From positions 22,502-86,501 of the forward strand of contig JAUWYX010000007.1 of the NCBI GenBank assembly GCA_030615625.1: a stretch of DNA of 64,000 bases. The letters run 5' to 3'. The position numbers and the translations under genes are program-made. Under the pieces are notes generated by a model. The model was given only the letters and a program-made list of their open reading frames with translations, searched no databases and had not been told where the DNA came from. Shown piece after piece: positions 20,952 through 64,000 of this stretch. Position 1 is the first letter of the stretch; the number at the start of each line of letters is the position of its first letter. The stretch is from Dehalococcoidia bacterium (GTDB lineage: Bacteria > Chloroflexota > Dehalococcoidia > GIF9 > AB-539-J10).

Positions 20952-22100
20952 ATGAAAGTTGAAGACATCAAGAAAATTGCGGTTATGGGGGCTGGCGACA
21001 TGGGACATGGCATTGCCGAGGTGGCGCTGCTTGCGGGCTACAAGGTAGCACTGCGGGACATCGAGCAAAGATTTGTTGACAGGGGGCTTTCCAGAATTAA
21101 GGAGAGCCTGGATAAGCTCGCGGGAAAGCAGAAAATCACTGAAGAGAACAAAAAGGCGATGGTGGCTAACATCACGACCTTTGTTGATATTGCTGAGTCT
21201 GTTAAGGACGCTGATTTTGTTATTGAGGCAGTTCCCGAGATTATGGACCTCAAGAAGCAGGTTTTCCAGGCGCTGGATGCAGCCGCTCCAAAACATGCCA
21301 TACTGGCTTCGAATACCTCCAATATGAGCATCACGGAGATTGCCGCGGCTACGAAGAGGCCGGAGCAGGTCGTCGGCATGCATTTCTTTAACCCGGCTGT
21401 CCTGATGAAGCTCGTCGAGGTCACAAAGGGAGGAAAGACAACCGAGGAGACAATGCAGGTGGCATATAATCTGGCGCTGAAGATGAACAAGGTGCCGGTC
21501 AGGGTTGAGAAAGACTCTATCGGATTTGTTTATAATCGGATCAACGCGCCGGCCCAGATTCTACTTAGCCTGATGGTAGAAAAAGGCGTGGCTGCCCCGA
21601 TGGAAATCGATGCCAAGATGAGAAAGATAGGTATGCCTATGGGGCCATACGAGCTGATGGACTATGTGGGGCTGGATGTCGCCTATCACGGCGCTCTTTA
21701 TTTTGCTGACAAACTCTCTCGCGACTACGCGCCGCCCAGCTGGCTCAAAGCTAAGATTGACGCTGGTACGCTGGGGAAGAAGACAGGAAAGGGCATTTTT
21801 GACTGGTCTAAAGGCAGGCCAGAGATAGACTTATCCAAGGCGAAAGAAGACTTCGACCCCACTGCCTTGATTGCCCTTCAGGTTAACGAGGCGACAAAGT
21901 TGCTCGAGGCCGGAGTAGTCAAGAGTCCGGACGAAATTGACAAGGCGATGGTTAATGGAGGCGGTTCGGTGATTGGTCCCTTTCAGCTTGCCAAGGGGAT
22001 AGGGTATGATAAATTAGCCAAAATATGTGAAGACCTTGCCCAAGAGTTTGATGTCAAAGTTTTCGAGCCCACTGAGACATTGAAGAAGGGGAATATCTGA
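20952..22100 (+). CDS. 3-hydroxyacyl-CoA dehydrogenase
   Basis: IAVMGAGDMGHGIAEVALLAGYKVALRDI, ASNTSNMSITEIA, GMHFFNPAVLMKLVEV, DSIGFVYNRI; two C-terminal helical domains. Confidence 0.95.
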   Translation: MKVEDIKKIAVMGAGDMGHGIAEVALLAGYKVALRDIEQRFVDRGLSRIKESLDKLAGKQKITEENKKAMVANITTFVDIAESVKDADFVIEAVPEIMDLKKQVFQALDAAAPKHAILASNTSNMSITEIAAATKRPEQVVGMHFFNPAVLMKLVEVTKGGKTTEETMQVAYNLALKMNKVPVRVEKDSIGFVYNRINAPAQILLSLMVEKGVAAPMEIDAKMRKIGMPMGPYELMDYVGLDVAYHGALYFADKLSRDYAPPSWLKAKIDAGTLGKKTGKGIFDWSKGRPEIDLSKAKEDFDPTALIALQVNEATKLLEAGVVKSPDEIDKAMVNGGGSVIGPFQLAKGIGYDKLAKICEDLAQEFDVKVFEPTETLKKGNI

Positions 22101-55445: not shown

Positions 55446-55818
55446 CTGGGCTAGAAAAATAATCTGGGAGTAGAAATCGGCATTAAAGATTCCTCATATC
55501 ATATTAGAGCCAAAACAATTTATAGTGTTCCGCATAATCTCGTATAAAATCCCTCCTATTTTTCTGCTCAGGAATGCCTGCCACGATAGATTTCTTAAGG
55601 CGTTCTTGCCACAGAACATGCTATGGAGCCAGCCAAGAGTTGACGGTTACTACCTGGGGATGATATCCTTGAGACAGGTTATCTCTGGTCATGAAATCAT
55701 CCAGATTGGAGGCAATAGAGATAAGAGATGAACTAAAGCTTAAACCAGAATCTGGCTGTTTCTCACTACCACATCGGTCCTGCGTAACTGCAGGAAATTC
55801 TGAAAAGGGAGGTCCAAT

Positions 55819-56583
55819 ATCAGCGATTTATTTGATTTGACAGGCAAGACTGCTATCGTAGTCGGCGGCGCTGGCGGCATCGGTCGTGCGCAGGCTCTGG
55901 GCCTGGCGGAGGCTGGCGCCGATGTCGTTGTGGCCAGCCGTAACCTGGAGCATCTAAAGCCGGTAGCTGAGGAGATACAAGCTCGGGGTAGAGAGTCACT
56001 GGCGGTTACCGTGGAGGTTACTGATGAGAAATCAGTAGCGGCTATGGTCGATAGTGTCCTGAAGAAATTCCCTCACATTGATATTCTGGTAAACGCTCAT
56101 GGTCTGGCGATCCGCAAACCTGCCGATACCTTTCCAATTGACGAGTGGCAGCAAGTTATGGATATCAACACCCGCGGAACATTCATCTGCTGCCAAGTGG
56201 TTGGGCGGGTGATGATCAAACAGCGTAGTGGCAAGATCATAAACGTATCATCGGTGAGAGGTAGATACGGCCTCCCTGCAAATTACGCTGCTTACTGCGC
56301 CAGCAAAGGAGCTGTAGATACTCTGACACGAACGCTCGCTTGCGAGTGGGCTAAGTATAATGTGCTGGTGAATGCGGTCGCGCCCACTATTGTGGAAACC
56401 GAACTTACCCGTCCTGCCTTGGCCAACCCCCAGTTTGCCCAGCAGATGAAGTCTCGTATCCCGCTCGGCCGCTGGGCAATGCCGGAGGATATTGTCGGGG
56501 CTACCGTATTCTTTGCCTCAAAGGCGTCAGACTTCATTACAGGGCAAATCCTTTACATTGACGGTGGCGTGACTACTTGGTAA
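55819..56583 (+). CDS. SDR-family oxidoreductase; candidate phloroglucinol reductase-like
   Basis: ISDLFDLTGKTAIVVGGAGGIGRAQALGLAEAGADVVVASRN...YAAYCASKGAVDTL...YIDGGVTTW. Listed ORF begins at TTG 55837; SD GGGAGG and the N-terminal motif point to 55819 (ATC). Confidence 0.85.
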   Translation: MSDLFDLTGKTAIVVGGAGGIGRAQALGLAEAGADVVVASRNLEHLKPVAEEIQARGRESLAVTVEVTDEKSVAAMVDSVLKKFPHIDILVNAHGLAIRKPADTFPIDEWQQVMDINTRGTFICCQVVGRVMIKQRSGKIINVSSVRGRYGLPANYAAYCASKGAVDTLTRTLACEWAKYNVLVNAVAPTIVETELTRPALANPQFAQQMKSRIPLGRWAMPEDIVGATVFFASKASDFITGQILYIDGGVTTW

Positions 56584-56622
56584 TAGAATAATTGATAGTT
56601 AAAATTTAAGGAGGTATATGTT

Positions 56623-57429
56623 ATGGGGGAAGAAGTTTTAGTTGATTTGAGCCATCCGTTTGGTGCTGGTTCACCCCTGTGGCCGTATTTTGAAGATGTT
56701 AAAATCGAAAGAATGCACTATATGGCAAAGTCCGGCGTTCTGTCCCAGAAAATAACGACCGTCATGCATTGCACCACCCATGCCGATTCACCAGGGCACG
56801 TATTTGAGGGCGGTTTGTTTACTCACGAAATTCCCCTGACCTGCTACTATGGCGATGCTGTAGTCTGGGATATCCCAAAGAAAAAATGGGAGCTCATCAC
56901 CGCCACGGATCTCGACGCGGCGAATAAGAGGTTGCCCATGAAGGCGGGCGATATCATTATTGTCCATACCGGTTGGAATAAATATTGGGGCGATAACACT
57001 ACTTATTTCTGCTATTCGCCCGGATTGGGCAGAGAAGCTGGTGAATGGTTCGTATCGCATAAAGTTAAAGCTGTCGGCGTGGACCAGCAAGCTCTGGACC
57101 ATCCGCTCCACACCGCTATTGGACCTCATGGTCCTGGGCCGCTGCGTCCAGACATCTGTGCCGAATATAAGAGAGAGACCGGACACGACGTACTGCAAGA
57201 CTTCCCGGAGTGGGAACCCTGTCATAACCTGATAATGAGAAACGGTATCCTCGGCTGGGAAAACGTCGGTGGCGATATCGCTAAAGTGGTCGGGAAAAGA
57301 TGTAGACTTTCCGGTTTCCCGATTCGATGGTACATGGGTGATGGCTCCATCGTTCGTATGGTTGCCTTCATTGATGAGAAGGACCTCAACGACGTCCCGG
57401 ATCGCGTTTACAAGTACGGCACACAATAA
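56623..57429 (+). CDS. Cyclase-family (kynurenine formamidase-like) metal hydrolase; candidate dihydrophloroglucinol cyclohydrolase
   Basis: VDLSHPFGAGSPLWPYFEDVKIER, TVMHCTTHADSPGHVF (HxTHxDxPxH-like motif), GDIIIVHTGWNKYWGD, AVGVDQQALDHPL. Confidence 0.85.
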   Translation: MGEEVLVDLSHPFGAGSPLWPYFEDVKIERMHYMAKSGVLSQKITTVMHCTTHADSPGHVFEGGLFTHEIPLTCYYGDAVVWDIPKKKWELITATDLDAANKRLPMKAGDIIIVHTGWNKYWGDNTTYFCYSPGLGREAGEWFVSHKVKAVGVDQQALDHPLHTAIGPHGPGPLRPDICAEYKRETGHDVLQDFPEWEPCHNLIMRNGILGWENVGGDIAKVVGKRCRLSGFPIRWYMGDGSIVRMVAFIDEKDLNDVPDRVYKYGTQ

Positions 57430-57477
57430 CCCGGATTATTCACGACTCGAGTAATTTGCAATTAAAAGGGAGAAAAT

Positions 57478-57810
57478 ATGAAAAAGATTAGTTTAGCTCA
57501 GGTCAAGCCATATGAGGCTCCCGGTCATTCCAAGATGGTTGCGCTCAAGCTAAGCGGCAAAGATGAAACAGGGGCTGAGAAGTTCTGGGTGGGCATGTCC
57601 CATTTCCTTCCCGGCGGTGGGGCTGAATTCGGCGCTACGCCAGCGGAGAAATACTACTTTGTCCTGGACGGAGAAATCACGGTCAAGACCGAGAAGGAAG
57701 AGGTAACCCTCGGCCCATGGGATTCAGTCTACATCGCTCCCAACGAAGGAAGGGAAATCATCAACAAGACCAATAAGCCAGCGAGTATGCTGGTAGTTAT
57801 TAACTATTAG
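57478..57810 (+). CDS. Cupin-domain protein
   Basis: GAEFGATPAEKYYFVLDGEITVKTEKEEVTLGPWDSVYIAPNEGREIINKTNKPASMLVVI, single cupin fold. Confidence 0.85.
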   Translation: MKKISLAQVKPYEAPGHSKMVALKLSGKDETGAEKFWVGMSHFLPGGGAEFGATPAEKYYFVLDGEITVKTEKEEVTLGPWDSVYIAPNEGREIINKTNKPASMLVVINY

Positions 57811-57892
57811 GCTAATTTTCCATTTCTCTGAACAGTTGTGTTTCTAATTGCCCCATAGAATTGTATAGACTACGGGAAACGAGAGAAGGGCT

Positions 57893-58846
57893 TTGATAAG
57901 AGCTGAAGATGTTAGCAATATTGCCGTGATTGGCGCGGGCATGATAGCGCCCGGCGTTGCTCAAGTCTTTGCCACCAAGAACTACAATGTTCGTATCTTT
58001 GCCAGAAGGCAAGAGGCATTGCGAGCGGCTATTGAAAGAATCAGGTCTGCCCTCTCAACAATGGCTGAAAGAGGGATTGGTTTACAGAGTGAAATCGAGC
58101 CAGCCATAAGCAGGATCAAAACCACCACCGAACTGAGCGAGGCCGCCGCCGATGCTCACTTGGTGATTGAGTGTGTCTCCGAAAATCTGGAGTTAAAGCA
58201 GCAGTTCTTTCATAATCTAGACCGGCTCTGTCCTCCAGAGACTATTCTGGCTACCAATACGTCGGTGATTAGCATAACCGAAATCGCGGCCAAGGCTCGT
58301 GTGAAAGAGAGAATTCTGGGGACTCATTTCTGGAACCCCCCTTACCTGATCCCGCTCGTGGAAGTTACCAAGGCAAGAGATACCTCTGACGAAGCCATGG
58401 AGGCGACTTATCAGCTCATGAAAAACGCAGGGAAACACCCGGTGAAGTGCATGAAGGATGTGCCTGGTTTTATCGCCAATCGGCTGCAACACGCCTTGTG
58501 GCGGGAGGCTATCTCCATCGTGGAAAATGATATTGCAGACGCCGCTACTGTTGATGAAGCTATCAAGAACGGTTTTGCTGTTCGGTTGCCAGTTCTGGGA
58601 CCTATTGAGAACGCCGACATGGTCGGACTCGACCTAACCCTGTCTATCCACGACTATATTCTCAAGCATCTTGAATCTTCTCCGAATCCCTCGCCCCTCC
58701 TAAGGGAAAAGGTGAAAAGAGGGGAGCTGGGATTCAAAACAGCGCAGGGTTTCTATACCTGGTCTCCCGAAGAGATCAACAAGTCCAAGGAAAGGCTTCT
58801 AGAATACCTCATCGAGTGGACCAAGAAAGAACAGGGCAAAGCATAG
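57893..58846 (+). CDS. 3-hydroxyacyl-CoA dehydrogenase-like NAD-dependent dehydrogenase; candidate 3-hydroxy-5-oxohexanoate dehydrogenase
   Basis: IAVIGAGMIAPGVAQVFATKNYNVRIFAR, IECVSENLELKQQFFHNLDRL, NTSVISITEIA, GTHFWNPPYLIPLVEV, DVPGFIANRLQHALWREAISIVE; TTG start. Confidence 0.88.
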   Translation: MIRAEDVSNIAVIGAGMIAPGVAQVFATKNYNVRIFARRQEALRAAIERIRSALSTMAERGIGLQSEIEPAISRIKTTTELSEAAADAHLVIECVSENLELKQQFFHNLDRLCPPETILATNTSVISITEIAAKARVKERILGTHFWNPPYLIPLVEVTKARDTSDEAMEATYQLMKNAGKHPVKCMKDVPGFIANRLQHALWREAISIVENDIADAATVDEAIKNGFAVRLPVLGPIENADMVGLDLTLSIHDYILKHLESSPNPSPLLREKVKRGELGFKTAQGFYTWSPEEINKSKERLLEYLIEWTKKEQGKA

Positions 58847-58921
58847 AACGACCTTGAGTGATCATGCAGAAAGCTATTGCATTTGGTGCAATGAGATACA
58901 TCTTGTAGGAGGAGTGAGCAG

Positions 58922-59857
58922 ATGGAAAAGCTTATCATAACGGCCGCCTTGACTGGCAATATCACCCTGCCGACTCAGACACCTTATCTACCGCTGACAC
59001 CGCAGCAAATCGCCGAGGAGGCGGTAAGGTGTGCCAATGCTGGCGCGGCTTCGGTGCACGTCCATGGTAGAGACCCGCAGACCGGCAAACCGACTACCGA
59101 CCCGGCAGTCTACCGGGAGATTGCCACCCTCATTAAGTCAAGAAGCAATGTTATTGTCTGCGTGACCACCGGCGGCACCATGGAAATGACAGCGGCGGAA
59201 AGGATAAGGGTTGTCCCGGCTCTCAAACCGGAGCTGGCTACATTTAACATGGGCTCGATCAACTTCTCAATTCACCCGATTACAGAGCGATATAAGGACT
59301 CGGACTACAAGTATCCCTGGGAGAAGGATTTTGCCGCCGGAACCATAGATTTCATCTTCCGTAATACCTTTGGTGATATCGAGCACTTCTGTAAGACCAT
59401 GACTGAGAATGATACCAAACCCGAACACGAAGCATATGACGTAGGGCACCTGTACAATATACAGTATTGTATTAGGAGAAAGCTCGTGCAATTCCCCATC
59501 TGGGTGCAATTCGTCACCGGAATTCTGGGTGCGATTGGCGCCCATTTAGAAAATATCATGTTCATGAAACAAACAGCTGACCGACTGTTCGGGCCGGAAA
59601 ACTACAAGTGGTCGGTAATTGGCGCCGGCTACCCCGCCGAGTTTAACCTGGCGACACTATCCATAATGATGGGTGGGCATGTCCGCGTGGGCTTTGAAGA
59701 CAATATTTATGTCCGCAAAGGTGTATTGGCTAAGAGCAACGCCGAACTGGTAGAGAAGGTAATCAGAATCGCCCGGGAGCTTGAACGGGAAATAGCTACG
59801 CCCGACGAAGCAAGAGAGATCCTTGGCCTAAAAGGGAAGGGCAAGGTCAACTTCTAG
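58922..59857 (+). CDS. BKACE/DUF849 beta-keto acid cleavage enzyme; candidate triacetate acetoacetate-lyase
   Basis: KLIITAALTGN...PLTPQQIAEEAVRCANAGAASVHVHGRDPQTGKPTTDPAVYREI, VTTGGTMEMTAAERI, VGAGYPAEFNLATLSIMMGGHVRVGFEDNIYV. Confidence 0.92.
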   Translation: MEKLIITAALTGNITLPTQTPYLPLTPQQIAEEAVRCANAGAASVHVHGRDPQTGKPTTDPAVYREIATLIKSRSNVIVCVTTGGTMEMTAAERIRVVPALKPELATFNMGSINFSIHPITERYKDSDYKYPWEKDFAAGTIDFIFRNTFGDIEHFCKTMTENDTKPEHEAYDVGHLYNIQYCIRRKLVQFPIWVQFVTGILGAIGAHLENIMFMKQTADRLFGPENYKWSVIGAGYPAEFNLATLSIMMGGHVRVGFEDNIYVRKGVLAKSNAELVEKVIRIARELEREIATPDEAREILGLKGKGKVNF

Positions 59858-59916
59858 AAGAACCGGACATAATACCCCACAAAAAAGTCTCTTCGATTCT
59901 ATTTTGTTTTTTGAGC

Positions 59917-60483
59917 CTAGCAACCTTCTGTGGGCGACTCGTAGGTGGCCACTTCACGGCTTTTGCAATCTGCAAGCTTGGACACGTTTGAAGGGGATTG
60001 TGTCAAATCAGCGACGACCACAAATTCGTACTCAGGGAAATGCCTCTGAAGTGCTCCTTTTAACGAACTCCTTACTACTATGAGCACGTTGACTGGTGAA
60101 GCTAGGGCTAATTCGACTGCGGGCATAAGCCCTTTGCCACACAGTTCCAACGGGCCGACCTCATCGATGACCACAAAATCGTATCTGCTCTCGACCGCCC
60201 GTTTAATAGCACCGCAGGCAAATAATATCCCGTCCCTGCTAATGGTATAGTCACCAACCATTTCACCTCCCTTGAAACATCTATGGCATGATAGCCGGGC
60301 AAATGGGATCTCTTGGCCGGTAAGGAGGTCAAGTGCATTAGAGCCAACTCGTTGTCCTTGCTTCTCAATCGCCGGAGAGAGGATTCCGCCAACGCTGGAA
60401 CCAGATTTTCGCCGCCAGTCAATGTATCCCCTGCACCAACTGGTCTTGCCTGACCTTGGTTCACCTACAACGAGCAGTCTCAC
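59917..60483 (-). CDS. THEP1-like nucleoside-triphosphatase
   Basis: LLVVGEPRSGKTSWCRGYI (Walker A), GGILSP, FVVIDEVGPLELCGKGL (Walker B). Confidence 0.75.
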   Translation of the reverse strand: MRLLVVGEPRSGKTSWCRGYIDWRRKSGSSVGGILSPAIEKQGQRVGSNALDLLTGQEIPFARLSCHRCFKGGEMVGDYTISRDGILFACGAIKRAVESRYDFVVIDEVGPLELCGKGLMPAVELALASPVNVLIVVRSSLKGALQRHFPEYEFVVVADLTQSPSNVSKLADCKSREVATYESPTEGC

Positions 60484-61250
60484 TAAAGACCTAATGCGAA
60501 GGCAACTGCTGCAATAATCCAGCAGGAGACTATGGTAGCTGTAGTGCTAGCATAGAACAACCTTGGCTTTGTGCTGCTGAGTTGCCAGAACTTGGGTCGG
60601 AGCTGCATGCCTACCAGGTGTCCCAGTAGCAGCAGACAAGTACCTACAATGGCTAGACCTGTACCATTGGCAAACACTGAACTGAGTCTCTCAGCAAGTC
60701 CCCAGGATGCCCAGTTACCCATACCTATGGCCGATGCTAGGATGGCGAAAAGGATGATGCTCAGGTATCCCGCTGCAACACCAGCGCCAATGCGCATCTT
60801 GATACTACTTTCAAAACCTTTAAACAGCAGGCTGACCACCAGGCTGAAGGCCAGTGCTTCCAGAAGGATTGCCGAGGCAGGGTTGACCACGAAGGGAGCA
60901 AAGATAGGTTGGCCATAAATCACGGCGCTCAGCGGCTTGAACAGGGCGGCGATCACTCCAATCCAGAATACGAGCTTGGGCCGCCGATAGGTGACGACAA
61001 ACGCCCCCATAATTGATATGCCGATGCCCCCCGTAATTGCTCCTTTGTAGGCGAAGTGGATAAGGTGCAAAGAACCTCCCAGAGTGGCCTCCACAAGGCC
61101 CCAAATTGAGCCAAAGAGTACAATCCCGACGATGGCGCTCAAAATGTTTCCTGACTGTGAGTGTGTTCTCAGTTTGTTAAATACCTGCATGTTCCACCTC
61201 TTCATTCGTAAGCTTGTACTTAAGTATATCAAACAGAGATTTTTAGTCAA
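60483..61250 (-). CDS. Polytopic membrane protein of unknown function
   Basis: Multiple hydrophobic segments (IVGIVLFGSIWGLVEATLGG..., FVVNPASAILLEALAFSLVVSLLF, LSIILFAILASAIGMG); 1-nt overlap with the downstream NTPase gene. Confidence 0.75.
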   Translation of the reverse strand: MTKNLCLIYLSTSLRMKRWNMQVFNKLRTHSQSGNILSAIVGIVLFGSIWGLVEATLGGSLHLIHFAYKGAITGGIGISIMGAFVVTYRRPKLVFWIGVIAALFKPLSAVIYGQPIFAPFVVNPASAILLEALAFSLVVSLLFKGFESSIKMRIGAGVAAGYLSIILFAILASAIGMGNWASWGLAERLSSVFANGTGLAIVGTCLLLLGHLVGMQLRPKFWQLSSTKPRLFYASTTATIVSCWIIAAVAFALGL

Positions 61251-61300
61251 TATAGTGTTGACTCTTTTGAGTCCATCATATTAGAATAATAGACTAAGTC
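61245..61300 (+). promoter_or_regulatory. Putative promoter/operator region of the Mo-oxidoreductase gene
   Basis: TTGACT (61258-61263) - 18 nt - TAGAAT (61282-61287); overlapping palindromes AGTCAA-N7-TTGACT, GACTC-TTTT-GAGTC and GACTAAGTC. Confidence 0.5.
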
Positions 61301-61324
61301 AGACGAAAAAAGAGGAGGAAGAAT

Positions 61325-63913
61325 ATGGCCCGTTCTACGAAAGACGAACAAGTTTTTACAAATTGTACCGTCGGCGGACCGGTTTATGTCTACGTCAAAA
61401 ATGGAAAAATAACACGCGTTGAACCTCTGCAGCTCAGCCCCGATGATGCCAAGTCTTGGGTCATCGAGGCACGAGGAAGAAAGTTCTCTCCTCCAAGAAT
61501 AGCGATGGTCTCTCCGTATACTCTGGCTGAGAGGTCAAGAATATACGCACCTAACAGGATTCTTTATCCCCTTAAGAGGGTGGACTTCAACCCTAAAGGA
61601 GACAGGAAAGCTGAAAATAGAGGTAAATCAGGCTATGAGCGAATCAGCTGGGATGAAGCTTTAGATATTCTCACTCGCGAAATAGAGCGTGTTCACTTAA
61701 GTTATGGGCCGGGAGCCATTTTAAGTACGGCTTCCTCGCACCACAACTGGGGGAATATAGACTATAGACACAGTACCTACTTCCGGTTTATGGGAATCCT
61801 TGGCTATACTTACGCCGACCACAACCCCGATAGCTGGGAGGGCTGGCACTGGGGGGCAATGCATACGTGGGGGTTTGCCTGGAGGTTAGGGGTCCCTGAA
61901 CAATACGACCTTCTAGAAGACGCGTTGAAAAACACGGAGATGATAGTTTTTTGGTCCAGCGACCCTGAGTCCACGAGCGGAATATACTGCGGGCAGGAGT
62001 CAACCATATGGCGTTTCTGGCTTAAAGAGCTGGGAGTGAAAGTGGTCTTAATAGATCCTTACTATAACTTCACTGCCATAAACCTTGCTGACAAATGGTT
62101 TGCTCCAAGACCTGGAACCGACACGGCTCTAGCAGCAGCCATCGCTTATGTCTGGCTCACCGAAAACCTATACGATAAAGACTACATCGAAAAGCGTACC
62201 AGCGGATTTGAAAAGTGGCGAGACTATATTCTAGGTGAGGAGGATGGTTTTCCCAAGACCACGGAATGGGCGGAAAAGGAGACAGGAATACCAGCCCGGG
62301 AGATTAAAGCCCTGGCAAGGGAATGGGCGAAAAGGAAGACCATGCTGGCGGCGGGGGGGCTTGGTGGCTGGGGAGGAGCCTGCAGAACGGCCTATGGAAC
62401 GGAATGGGCGAGAATGATGGTTCTGCTCCAGGCGATGCAGGGTCTGGGCAAACCGGGCATAAATATATGGTCAACAACGGGAGGTGTCCCGTACAATGCC
62501 GACTTCGTATTTCCAGGATATGCTGAAGGGGGAATATCAGGTGACCCACTGAACTCTGCCGCCCACTTCCAAATGATCTCGCGAGGCATGACGAAGCATC
62601 CGGTGAGGTCGGCGATAAACGATCCGGGCGGGCAACATATTCATAGACTCCTAGTTCCTGAATGCGTTTTAAATCCGACCCAAGCGTGGCGGGGGAAGGG
62701 CTTCTGCGGCGCCTCCACCGAAACTCAGTTTAAGAAGTATAAGTATCCTGAAGACGGGTTCCCAAAGGTACGAATGTTCTGGCGGTATGGTGGCGCTTAC
62801 CTTGGCACCATGACCAACACGAACCGGTGGGTTAGGATGTACCGAAGCCCCAAGCTGGAATTTGTGGTTAACCAGTCCATCTGGATGGAGGGGGAGGCTA
62901 AGTTTGCTGACCTGGTGCTTCCAGCCTGCACCAACTTTGAAAGGTGGGATATCGGTGAGTGGGCTCACTGCTCAGGCTATATACCCCACTCATCCTATGG
63001 CACAAACCATCGGATAATAGTCCTGGAAAAGAAGTGTATTGAACCTCTTGGAGAATCTAAATCAGACTATGAGATATTTGCCATGATGGCTGAGAGGCTC
63101 GGGTTCCACGACAAGTTCACCGAGGGAGGCCTAACAGAATTAGACTGGATTAGAAGAATGTTTGAAGTCAGCGACCTACCCAAGTACATTTCATGGGAAG
63201 AATTCGAGAAGAAGGGCTACTTTGTTGTTCCTCTGCCCAAAGACTATAAGCCGACACCGGCCCTGAGGTGGTTTGCTGAGAATAGAAAACGGGATACACC
63301 GGACTGGGGGCCTGTTGGAGGGGGAGTAGAAGGACTGCCCGACAGGGAAGGAAACCTGGCAACCCAGAGCGGGAAAATAGAGTTTGAATCGCAGAGCCTC
63401 AAACGTTTTGACCCGAACGACGCTGAGAGACCGCTTATTCCCAAGTATATTCCTTCATGGGAAGGTCATCATACCAAGGAACTTGTATCCAAATATCCTC
63501 TGCAGCTGATTTCACCTCATCCAAGGTTCAGCTTTCACACCCATTATGATGGTAAGGAAAGCTGGATGAATGAAATACCGGAACACAGAGTTAAGGCGAA
63601 AGACGGACATTACTACTGGGTGATCCGGATAAACCTGGAGGACGCCAATAAAAGAGGCATAAAGGACGGCGATATAGTTAAAGCCTACAATGATAGGGGA
63701 GTCGTTTTATGTGCTGCCCAGGTTACCGGGCGCGTCCCAGCTGGAGTAGTTCATTCCTACGAGTCCTGCGCTATTTACGAACCAATTGGAGAGCCTGGTG
63801 AATCACCGGACAGAGGTGGATGTATTAACCTGTTGACACCTCACCGCTTCATGTCTAAGAATGCCTGCGGGCAGGCTCCGAACTCATGCCTAATTGAAAT
63901 AGAGAAGTGGTAG
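61325..63913 (+). CDS. Molybdopterin (DMSO reductase family) oxidoreductase, pyrogallol-phloroglucinol transhydroxylase large-subunit-like
   Basis: FTNCTVGGPVYVYVKNGKITRVEPL...YERISWDEALDIL...SSHHNWGNIDYRHSTYFRFMGILGYTYADHNPDSWEGWHWGAMHTWGFAWRLGVPEQYDLLEDALKNTEMIVFWSSDPE...LAAGGLGGWGGACR; closely resembles remembered Pelobacter acidigallici AthL. Confidence 0.9.
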   Translation: MARSTKDEQVFTNCTVGGPVYVYVKNGKITRVEPLQLSPDDAKSWVIEARGRKFSPPRIAMVSPYTLAERSRIYAPNRILYPLKRVDFNPKGDRKAENRGKSGYERISWDEALDILTREIERVHLSYGPGAILSTASSHHNWGNIDYRHSTYFRFMGILGYTYADHNPDSWEGWHWGAMHTWGFAWRLGVPEQYDLLEDALKNTEMIVFWSSDPESTSGIYCGQESTIWRFWLKELGVKVVLIDPYYNFTAINLADKWFAPRPGTDTALAAAIAYVWLTENLYDKDYIEKRTSGFEKWRDYILGEEDGFPKTTEWAEKETGIPAREIKALAREWAKRKTMLAAGGLGGWGGACRTAYGTEWARMMVLLQAMQGLGKPGINIWSTTGGVPYNADFVFPGYAEGGISGDPLNSAAHFQMISRGMTKHPVRSAINDPGGQHIHRLLVPECVLNPTQAWRGKGFCGASTETQFKKYKYPEDGFPKVRMFWRYGGAYLGTMTNTNRWVRMYRSPKLEFVVNQSIWMEGEAKFADLVLPACTNFERWDIGEWAHCSGYIPHSSYGTNHRIIVLEKKCIEPLGESKSDYEIFAMMAERLGFHDKFTEGGLTELDWIRRMFEVSDLPKYISWEEFEKKGYFVVPLPKDYKPTPALRWFAENRKRDTPDWGPVGGGVEGLPDREGNLATQSGKIEFESQSLKRFDPNDAERPLIPKYIPSWEGHHTKELVSKYPLQLISPHPRFSFHTHYDGKESWMNEIPEHRVKAKDGHYYWVIRINLEDANKRGIKDGDIVKAYNDRGVVLCAAQVTGRVPAGVVHSYESCAIYEPIGEPGESPDRGGCINLLTPHRFMSKNACGQAPNSCLIEIEKW

Positions 63914-64000
63914 TCAGACGCACTTAACCATTTGCAAGGCAGGGCGCATTACTGTACAATGTGCCAGAAAAAGGCAAGAGGGGAAGAATATGACGCATTC

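Follow-up and report, generated by a model that had tools for sequence, protein, structure and literature searches.

Layout of the locus

The stretch of DNA analysed here (the window; 64,000 nt) is the terminal part of contig C2 (bases 22502-86501 of 86501) of a metagenome-assembled genome (MAG) of the class Dehalococcoidia (Chloroflexota), which comprises 1.62 Mb in 19 contigs and is 97% complete. Towards the end of the window lies a locus that, judging from its sequence, very probably encodes a route for the anaerobic degradation of pyrogallol and phloroglucinol. Five genes on one strand, for a short-chain dehydrogenase/reductase (SDR), a cyclase-family metal hydrolase, a cupin, a dehydrogenase of the 3HCDH family and a BKACE protein, are followed by a pair of genes on the other strand and by the gene for a molybdenum (Mo) enzyme. 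The genes and the route had been named in an original prediction made from the DNA alone, and a check of open reading frames (ORFs) and Pfam families found the named genes present, intact and on the strands given there. The features are as follows.

55819-56583, plus strand: SDR, predicted phloroglucinol reductase (PGR); start probably ATC at 55819, placed by the ORF tool at TTG 55837
56623-57429, plus strand: cyclase-family metal hydrolase, predicted dihydrophloroglucinol cyclohydrolase (DPGC), with W20, Y22 and the HxTTHxD motif
57478-57810, plus strand: small cupin, conserved in such clusters (Pfam, cluster comparison)
57893-58846, plus strand: 3HCDH-family protein, predicted (S)-3-hydroxy-5-oxohexanoate dehydrogenase, that is, triacetate-forming dehydrogenase (TfD)
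58922-59857, plus strand: BKACE protein of a 311-residue clade, predicted 3,5-dioxohexanoate (triacetate):acetyl-CoA cleavage enzyme
59917-60483, minus strand: P-loop NTPase (PF03266/DUF2478), paired with a membrane protein beside the transhydroxylase
60483-61250, minus strand: membrane protein without a Pfam family, partner of the NTPase
61325-63913, plus strand: large subunit of a pyrogallol-phloroglucinol transhydroxylase (AthL/PgtL type; PF21423, PF00384, PF01568)
63914-64000, plus strand: end of the contig, with a fresh ATG within the final 11 nt and no start of the small subunit (AthS)

The genes from the SDR to the BKACE protein are separated by 39, 48, 82 and 75 nt on a single strand, and a Shine-Dalgarno-like AGGAGG or GGGAGG precedes most genes of the locus, which together suggest an operon. 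The frame of the SDR opens at the non-standard ATC behind a GGGAGG (start region 55806-55840); among its homologues in related loci (L numbers below), that of L006 has an ATG at this position, and that of L003, like the window, has none.

Assignment of the enzymes

The PGR, DPGC, TfD and triacetate acetoacetate-lyase (TAL) of Clostridium scatologenes have been established together with their diagnostic residues (Zhou et al., 2023; PMC10470551). In this study the characterised type was represented by the clostridial clusters L122-L128, which have the same make-up as the C. scatologenes cluster; in a PDB search with the L126 SDR the crystallised PGR (PDB entry 5g4k) scored 347 bits and was the only family under 1e-40, so that L126 can stand for this type.

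A sequence search of the PDB with the window SDR gave a higher score for gluconate 5-dehydrogenase (198 bits) than for PGR 5g4k (139 bits), and the best hits alone would suggest a plain FabG-like or gluconate dehydrogenase. This assignment is ruled out by the tree and by the residues, and here the original prediction of a reductase of the phloroglucinol type held. In a tree of 22 cluster SDRs and one Rhizobium SDR encoded beside cyclase genes versus 31 other SDRs, most of which come from the same genomes, the window SDR, 5g4k and all of the cluster SDRs form one clade together with that of Rhizobium (support 98/97). An Arg three residues past the catalytic-loop Ser (SSxR) is found in 22/22 cluster SDRs versus 1/31 of the background, and a Thr following the Pro of NxxxP in 18/22 versus 1/31, counts which come from related sequences and hence are not independent; the lone background SDR with both residues is the one from Rhizobium that adjoins cyclase genes. 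The NADPH motif TR(S/N), which is TGRN in 5g4k, reads ASRN in the window SDR, with the Arg and Asn kept and the Thr not. Both window-like and PGR-like SDRs occur within the clostridial type: of the otherwise similar clusters L122 and L123, with cyclases 86% and 85% identical to that of Acetoanaerobium, one has a window-like and the other a PGR-like SDR. By sequence the SDR belongs to the PGR clade, and phloroglucinol is its presumed substrate.

The cyclase (PF04199, 118 bits) keeps the metal-site motif HCTTHADSPGH, and its Trp20 and Tyr22 stand at exactly the positions reported for the C. scatologenes enzyme, where isatin hydrolase has Ile and Leu (PMC10470551). The WPY triplet is kept in all of the core clusters and in none of eight background cyclases, some of which retain the Trp. 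With the residues of the cyclohydrolase, unlike isatin hydrolase, the protein is a predicted DPGC, as originally proposed; a match to kynurenine formamidase was weak (40 bits versus a cut-off of 223). The same point is made by two loci from the genus of the host, L003 and L004, in which the slot of the cyclase is filled by a clostridial-type DPGC that is 69-70% identical to that of Acetoanaerobium and only 44% identical to the window cyclase, in the midst of genes that are 85-95% identical to those of the window (SDR 87% in L003, cupin 85-90%, BKACE 94%). A cyclase of this family occurs in 8/393 sampled genomes of the class (E <= 1e-40) and in 5/52 genomes of the family of the host (E <= 1e-30), counts that include some matches to a divergent variant or to the clostridial type; the locus is rare in the class.

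The dehydrogenase keeps the catalytic residues Ser117, His138, Glu150 and Asn188 (HBDH numbering), whereas the CoA-contacting Lys56 and Asn221 are replaced by Ile and Ala. The established 3-hydroxy-5-oxohexanoate dehydrogenase likewise lacks the CoA-binding Lys56 and Asn221 (PMC10470551). An ordinary 3HCDH elsewhere in the window (20952-22100) retains Lys56 together with Asp31. At position 31, that of the NAD-binding Asp, the predicted TfD has Ala followed by Arg-Arg, which suggests the use of NADP rather than NAD. The same slot holds the window type of TfD in L005 (95% identity) and another type in L003 and L004 (60%).

For the BKACE protein (PF05853, 353 bits) the original prediction of a triacetate-cleaving enzyme was borne out in part. 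His46 and His48 are kept and the Glu14 that defines the 3-keto-5-aminohexanoate cleavage enzyme (KCE), in which it is required for the amino group of the substrate, is Ile, and the best NCBIfam model is NF053538 (3,5-dioxohexanoate:acetyl-CoA acetone transferase; cut-off 430 bits) at 410.8 bits versus 286.3 bits for the KCE model; a KCE is ruled out by the missing Glu14 and by the clade. In the tree, KCE, clostridial TAL and a clade of 311-residue proteins form three separate clades. The last (support 100/99) holds the window protein, those of Syntrophorhabdaceae and other delta-group genomes, those of Novosphingobium and Rhizorhabdus clusters, and PDB entries 3lot and 3e49, which we take to be proteins of Archaeoglobus fulgidus and Paraburkholderia, respectively. 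Its members 3lot (448 bits), 3e49 (545 bits) and the Novosphingobium protein (504 bits) all pass the NF053538 cut-off, and clostridial TAL reaches only 233 bits. A phloroglucinol cluster has been reported in Archaeoglobus by Zhou et al. (PMC10470551), and at the position of Glu14 the C. scatologenes TAL (CsTAL) has Trp (PMC10470551). With its separate clade and Ile14, the window protein is not an orthologue of CsTAL; from the name of the model for its clade, residue 14 and its context, we infer that it may nevertheless act as a triacetate lyase.

The Mo enzyme is, as had been claimed, a full-length relative of the Pelobacter transhydroxylase (1172 bits, with the next family at 265 bits), 59.7% identical to its large subunit over 846 residues. 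All seven of the residues probed (His144, Tyr152, Asp174, Ser175, Trp354, Tyr404 and Tyr560), which we take to be those of the active site in the 2004 structure, are kept; a divergent paralogue, L004b (39%), loses Tyr152, Trp354 and Tyr404. The window AthL has no AthS behind it at the contig end. The only full AthS found in the genome is encoded on contig C9, where it adjoins a second AthL (L092 1817-5235), which is 77% identical to that of the window; this AthS is complete and scores 208 bits against Pelobacter AthS. The C9 pair adjoins a branched-chain-type ABC transporter. A search for DNA overlap of the end of contig C2 with other contigs, which might have continued into an AthS, found none. 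The missing partner and the second pair might indicate that the route begins at phloroglucinol, derived for example from flavonoids, and that the window AthL is an orphan or catalyses another reaction without a small subunit. We consider this unlikely: at the same locus in three close relatives (L003-L005) AthL is directly followed by AthS, the window AthL and the C9 AthS could pair in trans, and, judged by position 404, at which the C9 enzyme carries Asp in place of Tyr, the better transhydroxylase is the AthL of the window.

Related clusters and the proposed route

The gene set recurs in other phyla, which argues that its grouping is not due to chance. In Syntrophorhabdaceae (L008) one strand carries BKACE, cupin, SDR, TfD, acetoacetate-CoA ligase, AthL, AthS and FmdE, with the cyclase (70%) on a separate contig of the same genome; in L006 CoA-transferase genes sit between TfD and BKACE, and in the Clostridia cluster L125 the DPGC, TAL, TfD and SDR genes lie next to AthL and AthS. 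That ordinary genes of fatty-acid metabolism or lysine fermentation (FabG, kynurenine formamidase, HBDH and KCE) stand here side by side by accident would be allowed by the Pfam families alone, and yet is extremely improbable given this recurrence and the residues and trees, which set each enzyme outside those functions. Enzyme family, clade and key residues, like the recurring gene set, are evident from the sequences.

From these assignments the following route is proposed. The Mo enzyme would shift a hydroxyl group to convert pyrogallol to phloroglucinol, which the SDR would reduce with NADPH to dihydrophloroglucinol; the cyclase-family hydrolase would then open the ring in a retro-Claisen reaction to yield (S)-3-hydroxy-5-oxohexanoate, the 3HCDH-like enzyme would oxidise this free acid to triacetate (3,5-dioxohexanoate), and the BKACE protein would convert triacetate and acetyl-CoA to acetoacetate and acetoacetyl-CoA. 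Conversion to acetyl-CoA would be completed by enzymes encoded elsewhere in the genome, which contains thiolases and an acetoacetate-CoA ligase scoring 828 bits against a cut-off of 521, which none of 14 control genomes passes. A search of the genome for a CtfAB-type CoA transferase gave two matches within a single 600-aa frame on contig C13; this frame is not of the size of CtfA or CtfB, and the ligase is therefore preferred. The substrates of the route enzymes are presumed ones, as is the NADP(H) balance between the second and fourth steps. Only tentatively do we extend this to a fermentation that turns pyrogallol into acetyl-CoA with closed redox balance, in which the NADPH consumed by PGR is regained through a TfD that works with NADP, the BKACE lineage gained its activity on triacetate independently of the clostridial lyase, and route enzymes were exchanged one by one with other anaerobes at a fixed locus.

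Several observations weigh against the pyrogallol/phloroglucinol route. The window SDR is only 33% identical to the solved and assayed PGR; the BKACE protein, at 19 bits under the NF053538 cut-off, lies outside the characterised clostridial TAL clade and has Ile14 instead of the Trp of CsTAL; no AthS follows AthL in the remaining 87 nt; and the operon showed no gene for a transporter or a regulator. The original reading of the locus is largely supported, with two qualifications, namely that its lyase is outside the CsTAL clade and below the model cut-off, and that AthL has no AthS beside it. A further such observation is that the module also occurs in aerobes without AthL. Alphaproteobacterial plasmids (L089, L091, L093, L094 and L095; Novosphingobium, Rhizorhabdus, Aminobacter and others) carry the set of cyclase, cupin, SDR and dehydrogenase, in some cases with BKACE, and in two of them, from Rhizorhabdus and Aminobacter, the module lies near hydroxyquinol-pathway genes, including those for hydroxyquinol dioxygenase, which leaves room for a related ring substrate. 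The five-gene module might then degrade, by the same chemistry, a phenol with other substituents or another pattern of hydroxylation that likewise has a 1,3-diketone tautomer, such as a methylated phloroglucinol or a product of hydroxyhydroquinone, with AthL acting on that compound. Besides the low identity of the SDR, a divergent module beside a transhydroxylase in the same genus (L129-L131) speaks for this, as shifts of substrate seem to occur. On the other hand, the window agrees with the characterised enzymes in Trp20 and Tyr22 and in the residue pattern of TfD, relatives carry a clostridial-type DPGC in the same slot and AthL retains every pyrogallol-enzyme residue that was probed, so that a related substrate is decidedly improbable and the pyrogallol/phloroglucinol route is preferred.

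The divergent module (L129 6890-16001, L130 and L131, from the same-genus genomes G436, G434 and G433, respectively) is arranged in L129 as BKACE, cyclase, SDR, cupin and HAD, followed by a CoA ligase of the ADP-forming type, FmdE and AthL. Its cyclase has WPF or WPW in place of WPY, its dehydrogenase has the substitutions S117T, E150D and N188S, and its BKACE protein comes from another clade; it may represent a sister pathway that acts on a different polyhydroxybenzene.

Two further components accompany these loci. The cupin, of 110 residues and without the usual HxH metal motif, is present in nearly every such cluster of aerobes and anaerobes (L088-L095 and L122-L131); a literature search for a cupin in such clusters gave no paper, and the word is absent from PMC10470551. 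The pair of DUF2478 NTPase and Pfam-less membrane protein accompanies the transhydroxylase locus in the window, L003, L004, L005 and L129. In L129 a fragment beside the pair resembles, by eye, a molybdenum-cofactor nucleotidyltransferase, which makes a role of the pair in Mo-cofactor supply possible. The AlphaFold model of the membrane protein (pLDDT 42) was useless for fold comparison.

Comparison with known systems

Within one genus, two types of DPGC occupy one slot and two types of TfD another while the surrounding genes are conserved. These exchanges indirectly support the interchangeability of the enzymes, and they help in the annotation of distant relatives. With the present findings a polyphenol pathway that was established only recently is extended to the Chloroflexota of anoxic sediments, a setting in which plant phenols are believed to persist. 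The host, a Dehalococcoidia MAG, is indeed unlike the classical fermenters, as had been noted. The genes also make it possible to test the proposal, made in 2013, that this lineage uses pyrogallol.

In the relevant passages of earlier reports, Chloroflexi RBG-1351 and RBG-2 (Hug et al., 2013; PMC3971608) and DEH-C11 (Wasmund et al., 2016; PMC4959651) were predicted to possess pyrogallol transhydroxylases; these passages, in papers that both predate the 2023 enzymes, do not identify ring-opening genes, and the main text of PMC10470551 does not name Chloroflexi among the many groups that bear the cluster. The window shares with RBG-1351, RBG-2 and DEH-C11 a transhydroxylase predicted in Dehalococcoidia-related Chloroflexi, and a syntenic locus is present in L004, of the same genus. 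As far as these sources go, the pathway is known, reports on such a host had covered no more than its first enzyme and the complete set with this mixture of enzyme lineages was previously undescribed.

Compared with the PGR-DPGC-TfD-TAL cluster of C. scatologenes, the window has the same four predicted activities, the diagnostic residues of DPGC and TfD and an SDR of the PGR clade, and the clostridial clusters of this type found here also contain the cupin. It differs in that its lyase comes from another BKACE clade, its operon contains no CtfAB or thiolase, a transhydroxylase lies next door, acetoacetate-CoA ligase is encoded elsewhere in the genome and the host belongs to the Chloroflexota. 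The lyase instead shares clade, length and best model with PDB entries 3lot and 3e49 of the NF053538 type, although its score is lower than the cut-off. With AthL/AthS of Pelobacter acidigallici (PDB entry 4v4c) the window shares the type of large subunit, at 59.7% identity, and its probed residues, whereas its small subunit is not adjacent in the contig and a second AthL-AthS pair is encoded elsewhere.

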